Shown: piece by piece, positions 3,444 to 63,248 of the stretch
Layout: each line of letters starts with the position of its first letter
Position numbering within the stretch: the first letter of the stretch is position 1
Source: Planctomycetaceae bacterium
GTDB lineage: Bacteria; Planctomycetota; Planctomycetia; Planctomycetales; Planctomycetaceae
NCBI GenBank assembly: GCA_021732415.1
Contig: JAKFVC010000009.1
Span: forward strand, 1-64,000
Length of the DNA stretch: 64,000 bases
Direction: 5' to 3'
The notes under the pieces: model-generated
Seen by the model: only the letters and a program-made list of their open reading frames with translations
Told to the model about the DNA's origin: nothing
The model's database searches: none
Translations under genes and position numbers: made by a program

Positions 3444-3458
3444 CACGCGGGACGTAAC

Positions 3459-3747
3459 GTGGGACGGGTCTCTGACCCGTCTGAGGCCCGTAACAATCGA
3501 ATTGAAAAAGAGTCCAACCGAGCGAACTTCGCGCAGCGGCCGACTCGCATCAATCAATACGGTCTATTTCCACATCAAACCCAGGAAATCGGGTGCCACT
3601 GGCTATGCCAGTGCATTGCCGGATCGAGGCCCGAATGACCACCAGCACTGGCATAGCCAGTGGCACCCAATCCAAGAGTTTATTGATTGGTCGAGGGCTT
3701 TTCGGGAAATGATCTTCTCACGGACGGGCCTGGAGACCCGTCCCACG
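3459..3747. repeat. Inverted pair of the GGGACGGGTC dispersed repeat
   Basis: The left copy begins GTGGGACGGGTC at 3459 and is a variant carrying an extra GACCCGTCTGAG stretch. The right copy, CGGACGGGCCTGGAGACCCG plus TCCCACG, occupies 3721-3747. The same 27-base element occurs as inverted pairs at 17374/17488, 51829/51989 and 63046/63222. Another inverted repeat (3591-3668) is nested between the arms. The element fills most of the gap between the GlmU-like gene and prs; I see no gene in that 426-base gap. Confidence 0.85.
3591..3668. repeat. Perfect 24-base inverted repeat (GGGTGCCACTGGC)
   Basis: The arm at 3591-3614 (GGGTGCCACTGGCTATGCCA and four more bases) is exactly complementary to 3645-3668, with a 30-base loop. 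Perfect identity of arms this long, with an unrelated loop, suggests recent formation or maintenance by gene conversion. It is nested inside the 3459-3747 pair. Confidence 0.85.
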
Positions 3748-4817: not shown

Positions 4818-4850
4818 AGATCGTGCGATTGACACGAATTCAAAAAAGAT

Positions 4851-4965
4851 TTGGAACACTAATCTACGCTAATCAACACTAATTCAGAACACTTTAGATC
4901 GCAATCTCGATACGTTCTTCTCCTCCTTCTTATTAGTGTTTATTAGTGAAGATCAGTGTTCCAAA
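4851..4965. repeat. Inverted repeat built from AACACTAAT units
   Basis: The left arm (4851-4884) starts TTGGAACACTAATCTACGCT and the right arm (4931-4965) reads TATTAGTGTTTATTAGTGAA then GATCAGTGTTCCAA. Each arm is a degenerate tandem of an AACACTAAT-like unit, and the two arms are roughly complementary. It fills the gap between prs and the GNAT gene. Confidence 0.7.
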
Positions 4966-5022
4966 AAAACCTGTTCGTCTTCGCTCTGTAATCGGTGCAG
5001 TTTCTGAATTGGATGATCTGCA

Positions 5023-10678: not shown

Positions 10679-10740
10679 GGTCGGCGGAATTATAGTGCGC
10701 TCATTCTGCGAGGTACAGGAGCAATGACCCCGAGGCAACC

Positions 10741-10941
10741 CAGGCGAGCGTCCGGCGTAAGCCGGATGGTTTTTAGCGACCTTCAATTACCATGCAGGTT
10801 GATCTAAACAGTTGAAGTACCGATCCGCATTGCGCGAGTCCGATGAGAGTCGCCTCGGGTGCGAGTCTGATTGTTTAGATCAACTCGCGCGGTGGTAGTA
10901 CGTCGTCAAAAACCATCCGGCTTACGCCGGACGCTCGCCTG
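10741..10941. repeat. Nested inverted repeat, AGGCGAGCGTCCGGCGTAAG family
   Basis: The outer arms are CAGGCGAGCGTCCGGCGTAA onward (10741-10774) and its complement (10908-10941). An inner pair, GGTTGATCTAAACAG (about 10798) and CTGATTGTTTAGATCAAC (about 10867-10884), is nested inside. Related GCGAGCC-GGCGTAAGC arms appear at 16101, 16231, 26482 and 31109. It lies upstream of mfd and downstream of cdd, and nothing else is visible in this gap. Confidence 0.8.
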
Positions 10942-10972
10942 GTCGGCCACGGGGGCGTAAGCCGTAAACCCT

Positions 10973-12881: not shown

Positions 12882-13136
12882 CGGTCAACTACCTGGAAGA
12901 AATCTCGAGGGAAATTCGGCTCGTGGGAGGAGCGCGCGGGCGCCCTTCCGAGCTAATGTGCGCACGGACCCCCACCCGACGCAATACAAACCGTGTGCCA
13001 ATGGACATCTAACTGGCAAGAAGTGGCGAGGTGGCCGGTGTTGCAGCGAATTCGGTGGCGGCAGGGGCCGAGGGCAGTTCGATCACGACTACCCGACTGA
13101 TAACTCAGATGGAAAGTGTAAACGCCGGTTAACACA

Positions 13137-13386
13137 TTTGGACTGCGGCGATTCATCGCCGCTTTCCTATTCCGGACAGAGAACCGAGCGTCAATGAAAC
13201 ACACATGATCTTAATGTCTTGGAATTCTTCGTGTCCTTTGTGACCTTCTGTTCAAAGAAAGAAATTTGGAACAGAAGGTCACAAAGGACACAAAGGAATT
13301 CAAAGTTCGTTTCGTTACGGATCCGGACGCATTTAGACATTTTGAACCTGCAATTGGAAAGCGGTGATGAATCACCGCAGTCCAAA
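13137..13386. repeat. Nested inverted repeat in the TadE/ExeA divergent gap
   Basis: The outer arms begin TTTGGACTGCGGCGATTCAT (13137-13168) and are complementary to 13356-13386, which ends CACCGCAGTCCAAA, with a few mismatches. Inside is a second pair at 13221-13256 and 13266-13302, made of TTGTGTCCTTTGTGACC-like units. The remaining bases of the 984-base gap (12882-13136, 13387-13759) show no gene or RNA I can recognise, although the TadE promoter should be in the first part. Confidence 0.85.
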
Positions 13387-13759
13387 TGGGCTGTCGTCCC
13401 AAGTCTGCCGAATCGTTAGAAAAAACGACTTTGGAACAATCGGGATACCCCGCAGAGTTTCTCCAGCCTGCCTGTCGAGAACGCCTTTAACCGTTGAAAT
13501 GTTAATGGGTTACGAAGAAAGCGAGACCTTGGAACGGCTGTCCCGCTTGCGTTCAAGTCTGACCGCGCCACGACACGATTAACCGGAGGAATGAATAGCC
13601 TCCATCTGATCGATACAGAGTGACTCGCGGCTCACCTCTGGCGACGGGATGTTGGTACGTCCAACGCTCCGGGCCGAGTCTGCTTGTTTGCCGGGTGGGC
13701 GGTACGCGCCTGTGGGTACAGCGTGGGACCGAGCCGGGTAGAGATCGATCATTAGAACC

Positions 13760-13835
13760 CTGACAAAACCGGTTGTGGGAAGTTCGGAACTGCAGTATTT
13801 CAAGCAGTTCTGAACTGACGCAGAGGTTTTGTCAG
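13760..13835 (+). promoter_or_regulatory. Nested hairpin just upstream of the ExeA-like gene
   Basis: The outer arms CTGACAAAACC (13760-13770) and GGTTTTGTCAG (13825-13835) enclose inner arms AGTTCGGAACTGC (13781-13793) and GCAGTTCTGAACT (13804-13816). It ends about 30 bases before the ATG at 13866, so it would be part of the promoter or leader. Whether it is an operator, an RNA structure or another of the intergenic repeat elements cannot be decided from one copy. Confidence 0.55.
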
Positions 13836-16061: not shown

Positions 16062-16100
16062 GCTGGCATCTGCGCTGTGAGCTCGTTATAGAGACGATCT

Positions 16101-16264
16101 AGGCGAGCCGGGCGGCGTAAGCCCCCGGATTCTTCTCGATTCAGATTTGGAAACACAGAGGCACAGAGAACACAGAGGAATTGAATACTCTCTGTTATCT
16201 CTGTGCCTCTGTGTTTCAGAAATAATCCTGAAGAATCCGGAGGCTTACGCCGCCCGGCTCACCT
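16101..16264. repeat. Nested inverted repeat: GGCGTAAGC arms around CACAGAG arms
   Basis: The outer arms are AGGCGAGCCGGGCGGCGTAA onward (16101-16135) and its complement at 16231-16264. The inner arms are AAACACAGAGGCACAGAGAA onward (16151-16176) and TCTGTTATCTCTGTGCCTCT onward (16190-16217). The outer family is that of 10741-10941; the inner is related to 26360-26447 and 28593-28694. It fills the gap between the ExeA-like gene and lpxK. Confidence 0.85.
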
Positions 16265-16316
16265 AAGAGTCCGTGCGGCGTTGCAAGCACTTTTTCCCCC
16301 GGAATTGCCCCCCGAC

Positions 16317-22545: not shown

Positions 22546-22685
22546 TTTTTGGGAGGGCGAGGCTCCCGCCGAGCCTAGTACGACCGCAGGTCGGCGTCCG
22601 CCGGAGGCTGTTTTGATGCCTCCGGCGGACGCCGAGCTAAAGCTCGTCTTAGGCTCGGCGGGAGCCTCGCCCTCCCATCTCAAAA
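22546..22685. repeat. Long inverted repeat, GGGAGGGCGAGGCTCCCGCC family
   Basis: This is the longest stem of the window: about 65-70 bases per side, with a short loop near 22613. The left side begins TTTTTGGGAGGGCGAGGCTC and the right ends GAGCCTCGCCCTCCC. A shorter relative occurs at 53888-53972. It lies in the divergent gap between the lipoprotein and PQQ-propeller genes, which also holds a GACTCTCCGAGTC hairpin at 22803-22820. The remaining bases show nothing I recognise. Confidence 0.9.
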
Positions 22686-32258: not shown

Positions 32259-32355
32259 CTCGCAATTTGATTTTCGAACTAAGAGCTGAATTTTGACGTA
32301 ATGATGTATCGAGTTTGTTGAGATTAGGGTGAATTTCGAACCTGTAGGGTTCGCA

Positions 32356-32556
32356 GAGAGTAGCCGGTGGTTGAGGAGCGGAGCGACGACACCACCGGTA
32401 AGAGCACCAGTGTGGCCGCATCCTGGAGGGATGCCAGAGAGATGAACCATTCGATATTCGATTCGCGGAATCTCTGCGATCCCTCCAGGATCGGAGACGG
32501 ATTTGGACGTTGTCCGGTGGTGTCGTCGCTTCGCTCCTCAACCACCGGCTACTCTC
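32356..32556. repeat. Nested inverted repeat with 43-base arms (GTAGCCGGTGG)
   Basis: Outer arms: 32356-32399 begins GAGAGTAGCCGGTGGTTGAG and is nearly the exact complement of 32514-32556. The inner pair TCCTGGAGGGATGCCAGAGA (32421-32440) and TCTCTGCGATCCCTCCAGGA (32471-32490) is nested inside. The 418-base gap between the nitrilase and ceramidase-like genes otherwise holds nothing I can support. Confidence 0.9.
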
Positions 32557-32676
32557 TTTAATCCCTCCGGGATACGTTTCGGAATATGTAAGACGCCTGC
32601 CTAGCAACTTCGACGAATGAGAACAAACTCCAAAAATCAGCGGCCCTTAACTTGTACTTTCCTAGCGAGATGACTT

Positions 32677-34254: not shown

Positions 34255-34267
34255 GATCGGAATTTGT

Positions 34268-34325
34268 CGTAGCCGGACTCTCTGAGTCGGGTGTGTGTAC
34301 GCCCGACTCAGAGAGTCGGGCTACG
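34268..34325. repeat. Inverted repeat GTAGCCGGACTCTCTGAGTC
   Basis: The left arm (34268-34291) and right arm CCCGACTCAGAGAGTCGGGC plus TACG (about 34302-34325) pair well, each arm also containing the short CCCGACTC/GAGTCGGG hairpin. It sits between the ceramidase-like gene and the LRR gene. Confidence 0.85.
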
Positions 34326-34355
34326 GCCGGCTACGGAAGTTAAGGATTGAACACC

Positions 34356-51828: not shown

Positions 51829-52015
51829 CGTGGGACGGGTCTCCAGGCCCGTCCGTCAGCCTGGGATTTCTATTTCGCTAGATTGGAGAGAAAAAAAATA
51901 ACTACGTGGGCGATCGACTGTGGATTCCTATGCTTTGTTGAGCGTGGCTATTATGCAGCTGCTGGGTGTTTTCTTAAGAAAAATGTGGACGGACGGGCCT
52001 GGAGACCCGTCCCAC
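51829..52015. repeat. Inverted pair of the GGGACGGGTC repeat
   Basis: The copies 51829-51855 and 51989-52015 are identical in reverse complement, with 133 bases between. The left copy is preceded by CCGTAT. This is the only sequence between the SGNH-like and MBOAT genes besides two short stretches without features. Confidence 0.9.
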
Positions 52016-52020
52016 GGTTA

Positions 52021-63045: not shown

Positions 63046-63248
63046 CGTGGGACGGGTCTCCAGGCCCGTCCGTCCCTCCCGTAGCGTGACTCTCCAGAGT
63101 CGAGCGAATTCCTTGCGATTCGAGCAGCGCAGAACACGTTCCCGCGCACGTCAACACAAATCTGTGAGTCGTTGTTCCGCGAGGTTCGCCCGACTCTGGA
63201 GAGTTAGGCTACGACGGGGGACGGACGGGCCTGGAGACCCGTCCCACG
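63046..63248. repeat. Nested pair: GGGACGGGTC arms around CCCGACTCTGG arms
   Basis: The outer copies 63046-63072 and 63222-63248 are the 27-base repeat in inverted orientation. Inside, TCCCGTAGCGTGACTCTCCA onward (63077 region) pairs with 63190-63215 (CCCGACTCTGGAGAGTTAGG), a CCCGACTC-type element. The 655-base gap between the DUF3616 and efp genes holds no other supported feature. Confidence 0.9.

Follow-up and report, generated by a model that had tools for sequence, protein, structure and literature searches.

Why should a palindrome of one family sit at the centre of a palindrome of another? The question is raised at positions 13135-13388 of a 64,000-nucleotide stretch of a planctomycete genome (the whole stretch is termed the window here), where a hairpin of the family we call F6 lies between the inverted arms of a second family, F8. 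The window is contig C28 of a draft assembly (G000, the host genome) with 350 contigs and a total of 9.87 Mb, and the genome-wide counts given below were taken from 2.055 Mb of sampled sequence, or about one fifth of that genome. A repeat search covering loops of up to 420 nt returned 682 inverted repeats scoring at least 15 in the sample, against 1 in a dinucleotide shuffle, and these form 127 clusters, some 40 of which have at least three members (one cluster, F0, is a lump of several GTAG-tagged REPs). Nearly all of them (664 of 682, 97%) are mostly intergenic, the extragenic habit of REPINs; intergenic sequence makes up 18.5% of the sample according to our own simple hexamer gene finder, the gene calls of which are approximate. 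The host genome is crowded with gene-less, short palindromic mobile elements of about 40 families.

Within the window we count 29 non-redundant inverted repeats, and six nested pairs lie above threshold. An earlier note on this DNA, which spoke of about 30 sites, had listed seven at which palindromes of different families were nested, and had expected a long, branched hairpin as the outcome. Folding does predict such a hairpin, with concentric stems at all seven sites; our search detected the outer inverted repeats at 10728-10954, 13135-13388, 16100-16265, 32341-32571 and 63046-63248 and the inner one at 3588-3671, and the outer repeat at 3458-3747 was recovered with a separate repeat finder of our own. 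The nested stems stand, but the assignment to different families does so only in part: the inner hairpin of 32355-32557 is of the same family, F3, and built into the element ends, 10728-10954 has no independently recognised inner family, and the outer arms at 13760-13835 are too short to pass the threshold. The features are collected in Table 1.

Table 1. Nested and related palindromic features of the window.
Positions	Strand	Feature
13135-13171	+	Left outer arm, family F8; begins CATTTGGACTGCGGCGATTCATCGCCGCTTTCC
within 13135-13171		Small palindrome internal to the F8 left arm: GCGGCGAT-TC-ATCGCCGC
13219-13303	none	Inner hairpin, family F6; 38-nt arms, 9-nt loop
13352-13388	-	Right outer arm, family F8; inverted copy, 92% complementary
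3458-3747		Composite of REP A outer arms (15 nt recognised) with an F15 hairpin inside at 3588-3671
10728-10954		F30 long palindrome; arms of 83 nt, 82% complementary
13761-13835		Small nested palindrome; outer arms of 11-12 nt, below the threshold used
16100-16265		F7 outer arms with an F16 hairpin inside at 16150-16217
22550-22677		F1 composite, inner hairpin 22588-22638; absent from the earlier list
32355-32557		F3 composite, inner hairpin 32420-32491
51829-52016		REP A dimer; interior without a full-length match elsewhere
63046-63248		A+ B+ B- A-: REP A dimer enclosing a REP B dimer (63080-63213)

The nest that raised the question is a different-family element at the centre of an F8 dimer. 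The F6 hairpin is very nearly central, with 47 and 48 nt separating it from the outer arms, and sequences related to F6 stand at 40 or more places in the genome; the two-family combination of F8 and F6 occurs a single time in the 2.055 Mb sampled. A sister species (G003) carries the same nest at the same locus, and as such the nest is not recent but older than the split from that species. Among the 12 RAYT loci examined, no cognate RAYT is flanked by F8, A or F7, so that the outer family F8 is no more than a candidate member of a RAYT system.

It is probable, in our judgement, that nests of this kind arise in two ways, namely through the abutting of multi-hairpin transposon ends and through the presence of an element of another family inside a REP dimer. 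The parent transposon, in several of the families, would have two or three small tandem hairpins at each end, and where the RAYT (Y1/HUH transposase) gene is missing the inverted ends would abut, giving a palindrome within a palindrome. By the other route, a REP dimer (A, F7, F8) would acquire in its interior an element of a different family, often of the 10-nt-periodic type associated with GxxExxY genes; several of the resulting composites would then spread as single units.

Evidence on the former route comes from the RAYT genes themselves, the genome having 13 Y1 transposase matches. At the 12 loci examined, the arms of F36 with F43, F19, F22, F3, F99 and F21 flank RAYT genes in inverted order, and dimers of B and GTAGGATGG sit on both sides of two other RAYT genes; a cognate RAYT flanked by its own REP, as in REPIN systems, is found for F3 (whose arms bracket the gene at L057), F19, F22, F36, F21, F99, F17, B and GTAGGATGG. 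Gene-less copies of F36, F19 and F22 align to both ends of the RAYT locus over the outer and the inner hairpin, with the gene region missing, and since they match both hairpins of each end, the element in these families includes the inner palindrome. The gene-less copies of F3 and F21 align well to the RAYT locus at their outer ends and poorly in the middle. Fixed composites such as 32355-32557 are presumably gene-less (REPIN- or MITE-like) copies in which the two ends now abut; the alignments show this for F36, F19 and F22, and for F3 they do so partially. At C5:10009-10485 a diverged RAYT-like gene, scoring under the curated cut-offs of NF047646 and PF01797, has F1 arms on both sides; since a complete F1 element aligns next to the gene, this locus was set aside as not demonstrating split ends of the F1 composite by itself. 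A DUF6714 gene lies between F30 arms at C12:77000-77473, which may be coincidence.

The composites also recur as wholes. Clustering of whole elements reduces 128 nested outer repeats to 51 classes (sizes of 25, 8, 8, 7, 7, 5 and so on in the 2.055 Mb), and geometry is nearly fixed in the large ones: F1 (25 members, including 22550-22677), F3 (8), F21 with F20 (7), F19, F22 and F36. The F3 composite at 32355-32557 belongs to the class of 8 in 2 Mb, and the sister species has sequence related to it in at least 13 places; its intergenic region measures 418 bp here against 57 bp at the syntenic site there. Mixed-family composites recur as whole copies as well, as at three sites in the window: that at 3458 resembles A-F26-F15 composites at other loci of the genome, the F7/F16 composite at 16100 is one of seven of its class in 2 Mb, the sister species having three related copies, and that at 63046 has a second copy at C17:26446 (80% across the full length). 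The small unit at 13761-13835 (about 90 bp) is missing at the syntenic site of the sister species and has one diverged copy (77%) on C11, and the counterpart of 10728-10954 holds a different palindrome, a copy of the F30 palindrome (80%) lying elsewhere in that genome. Three other places are recorded in their own right. The window has a single F12 hairpin at 4818-5022 where the sister species has a nest of F25, F25 and F4 palindromes (L188:10503-10945); where a REP B dimer stands at 34255-34355, that species has a single palindrome of lesser length; and at C6:39703-40393 F2 palindromes stand in tandem with F37 hairpins between them.

REP A occurs as 42 A+A- pairs, the inverted pairing that is characteristic of REPINs, plus two with a B dimer inside, and never as A-A+. 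The composites at C4:35199, 37791 and 84115 have near-identical arms and a common but diverged interior. Eleven unmatched REP A interiors have no full-length sibling elsewhere in the genome; a 47-nt repeat motif occurs in one of them, and another has a diverged relative in the sister species. That species lacks arms and interior alike at three REP A sites (51829, C4:31031 and C4:35199), the region at 51829-52016 measuring 240 bp here and 77 bp there; the idea that outer arms had wrapped around old genomic DNA was rejected on the evidence of these sites, where the interiors are missing along with the arms. Most nested palindromes are copies of ready-made composite mobile elements, and only some nests began as one element jumping into another.

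The alternatives to this account differ in how they bear upon position. It had been proposed earlier that palindromes form from the centre outwards, which could proceed by template switching or by repeated addition of arms, and symmetrical concentric composites such as A-F26-F15 have the appearance that such growth would give. Composites of this sort are multi-copy units, however, RAYT elements account for the symmetrical ends in several families, and whole units are present or absent between the species (at a handful of loci), which argues against outward growth; with arms and interior missing together at three REP A sites, and the F8/F6 nest already complete in the sister species, we regard this mode of formation as very improbable and the earlier proposal as not supported. 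Whether nesting exceeds chance, as the earlier note had argued, depends upon the standard of comparison. With all intergenic space as the target, 49 distinct heterologous cases (67 in total) compare with 39-43 expected, an excess of only about 1.2-fold over the genome-wide density. By the refuting condition that the earlier note had set, this comes near to what density gives, and on that standard its argument fails; the near agreement is also what would commend the reading that nesting follows simply from the density of elements. Against the local surroundings the argument holds. Other elements number 2.0 (distinct) to 2.9 per kb of free loop sequence, against 0.52 in the adjacent intergenic flanks, such that extra elements are about 4-6 times denser in loops; furthermore, in tandem and convergent regions the second element lies inside the resident one in 40 of 62 distinct cases (65%; 40:22), where uniform placement would give 20-27% (p ~8e-10) and a null model with the same preference for stop codons 14%. 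Since interiors diverge fast, the collapsing of copies is imperfect and copies with diverged interiors may count as distinct; only the count by family pair guards against this, and with one event per pair the excess persists (34 inside, 22 adjacent). Nesting is favoured over side-by-side placement. Elements shun the flanks of other elements yet occupy their loops, and density alone, disfavoured by this local test, is an improbable explanation. The earlier suggestion of preferential insertion into loops is borne out in the same partial manner: the loop density and the excess that survives family-pair collapse speak for it, while the 1.2-fold figure, and the fact that much nesting is built-in or copied, speak against it.

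What underlies the local bias is bound up with the placement of the elements. Occupancy is about 0.4 elements per intergenic region at any length, and about 2% of the regions shorter than 500 bp hold two or more; this independence of length, together with the scarcity of doubles, departs from a random extragenic distribution. In tandem regions the upstream stop codon lies at a median of 23 nt from the element, and elements are commonest between convergent genes. Second elements lie inside loops more often than beside them since an intergenic region holds about one element, placed close to a stop codon. One possible reason, which we hold with some reserve, is selection that retains one palindrome per gene 3' end (for RNA stability or termination), such that extras survive only inside a resident. 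The occupancy, the proximity to stop codons and the convergent peak all favour it, as does the observation that syntenic 3' ends sometimes bear different families in the host and the sister species; elements nevertheless occur in divergent regions too, where no gene 3' end is present, and selection leaves unexplained the centring of inner hairpins in F8 loops (KS p = 0.0007, n = 6). That centring, a similar one in F30 loops and the loop densities given above would instead suit an active targeting of hairpin tips, with the single-stranded loop as the preferred integration site, in the way that intervening sequences of 23S rRNA, which may encode S23 proteins, replace helix tips, including rRNA tetraloops (PMC4990558). 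REP dimers inside palindromes in other bacteria (PMC3733652), and the F27 arms that bracket an S23-type gene in this genome, also point in this direction. Inner insertions in REP A loops show no centring, however, and pairing between the two flanks of a top-level element is barely above that of mismatched controls, giving no strong sign of entry into small pre-existing hairpins; we consider targeting of tips rather unlikely, and the 23S rRNA sequences would be a parallel to it and not a test of it. General insertion into small, terminator-like, pre-existing hairpins was likewise set aside, having little support from flank pairing. No target-site duplication was seen, the syntenic sites in the sister species being too diverged and the comparison of loops yielding no clean empty sites; as loops are not conserved, joining the inner flanks was uninformative on empty loops. 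The nesting bias is compatible with either cause, the targeting of loops or a selection that keeps a single hairpin at each gene 3' end.

Under the two-route origin that we prefer, the nature of the inner elements is of particular interest. Families with a 9-11 nt periodicity in their arms are nested in 19 of 100 distinct events, against 30 of 441 for the others, at a cut-off of 0.46 that was picked after the scores had been seen; at a cut-off of 0.58 there is no significant nesting signal. Of the seven PF13366 genes in the host genome, five lie between palindromes of a single family, namely F4 (twice), F12, F6 and F31. The GxxExxY gene at L208 has an F6 hairpin on one side and a single recognised F6 arm on the other, a longer copy with the same arms flanking a gene, as is typical of MITEs, and at L212 an S23-type gene is bracketed by F27 arms. 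The GxxExxY proteins submitted match TIGR04256, and one that was tested also matches PF13366, of the PD-(D/E)XK nuclease family. The bracketing extends beyond this genome (loci L205-L212 here, L213-L241 elsewhere): at 22 of 29 GxxExxY loci from Planctomycetota, Verrucomicrobia, Acidobacteria, Bacteroidetes and other groups an inverted repeat spans the gene, mostly with a period of about 10 nt, whereas controls for the 29 gave a spanning repeat in no shuffle and in one displaced window. Ordinary genes of 250-900 bp in the host have one in 10 of 454 cases, RAYT genes and one GxxExxY gene included. Two Cerasicoccus genomes hold more copies of the GxxExxY arms, several of which are gene-less inverted pairs. 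The commonest inner elements seem to trace to this little-studied, nuclease-like gene and to form their own class of mobile palindrome. We tentatively suggest that GxxExxY genes with terminal inverted repeats of about 10-nt period may be small mobile elements of a widespread class so far unrecognised, whose gene-less copies would be the periodic hairpins F4, F6, F12 and probably others, and which might settle at hairpin tips as the 23S rRNA intervening sequences do, producing nests; the bracketing of the genes is observed, and both the mobility and the tip targeting are inferred. We met no described GxxExxY mobile element in the open-access literature searched by the word GxxExxY and the accession PF13366, and GxxExxY supplies a candidate protein for very common periodic repeats, the origin of which is not described in the papers searched.

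This genome shows an origin of concentric palindromes from multi-hairpin transposon ends, and a placement rule of about one palindromic element per intergenic region, with further ones inside. The closest kind is the REPIN/RAYT system, described in Pseudomonas fluorescens and other bacteria, in which REP doublets form hairpins and accompany RAYTs (PMC3116915); inverted REP pairs, less conserved spacers, an extragenic location and a family-specific Y1 transposase gene are held in common. Here, in contrast, there are tens of families in one genome, several with two or three hairpins per end that make concentric palindromes, and placement is non-random, at about one element per intergenic region near a stop codon, whereas the REPINs of P. 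fluorescens were reported to be randomly distributed in extragenic space (PMC3116915). Palindromes with REP dimers inside, and hence one palindromic family within another palindrome, were described in 2013 for GTAG-15 of Anabaena variabilis, GTAG-23 of T. roseum and CGTC-1 of H. neapolitanus (PMC3733652); the pairing is fixed in each of those species, while about 39 family pairs occur in 2 Mb here and composites are copied as units. MITEs are similarly short and gene-less, with terminal inverted repeats and gene-bearing relatives, but no target-site duplication was seen here, and the RAYT-family transposase is of the single-strand Y1 type. The 23S rRNA intervening sequences (PMC4990558) share terminal inverted repeats, an optional small-protein gene and a location at hairpin tips; the sites in the window lie between protein-coding genes and not in rRNA genes, an S23 (PF05635) reading frame between terminal inverted repeats is found only for F27 at L212 and not in the F8/F6 nest, and the usual gene of these intergenic palindromes is GxxExxY rather than S23.
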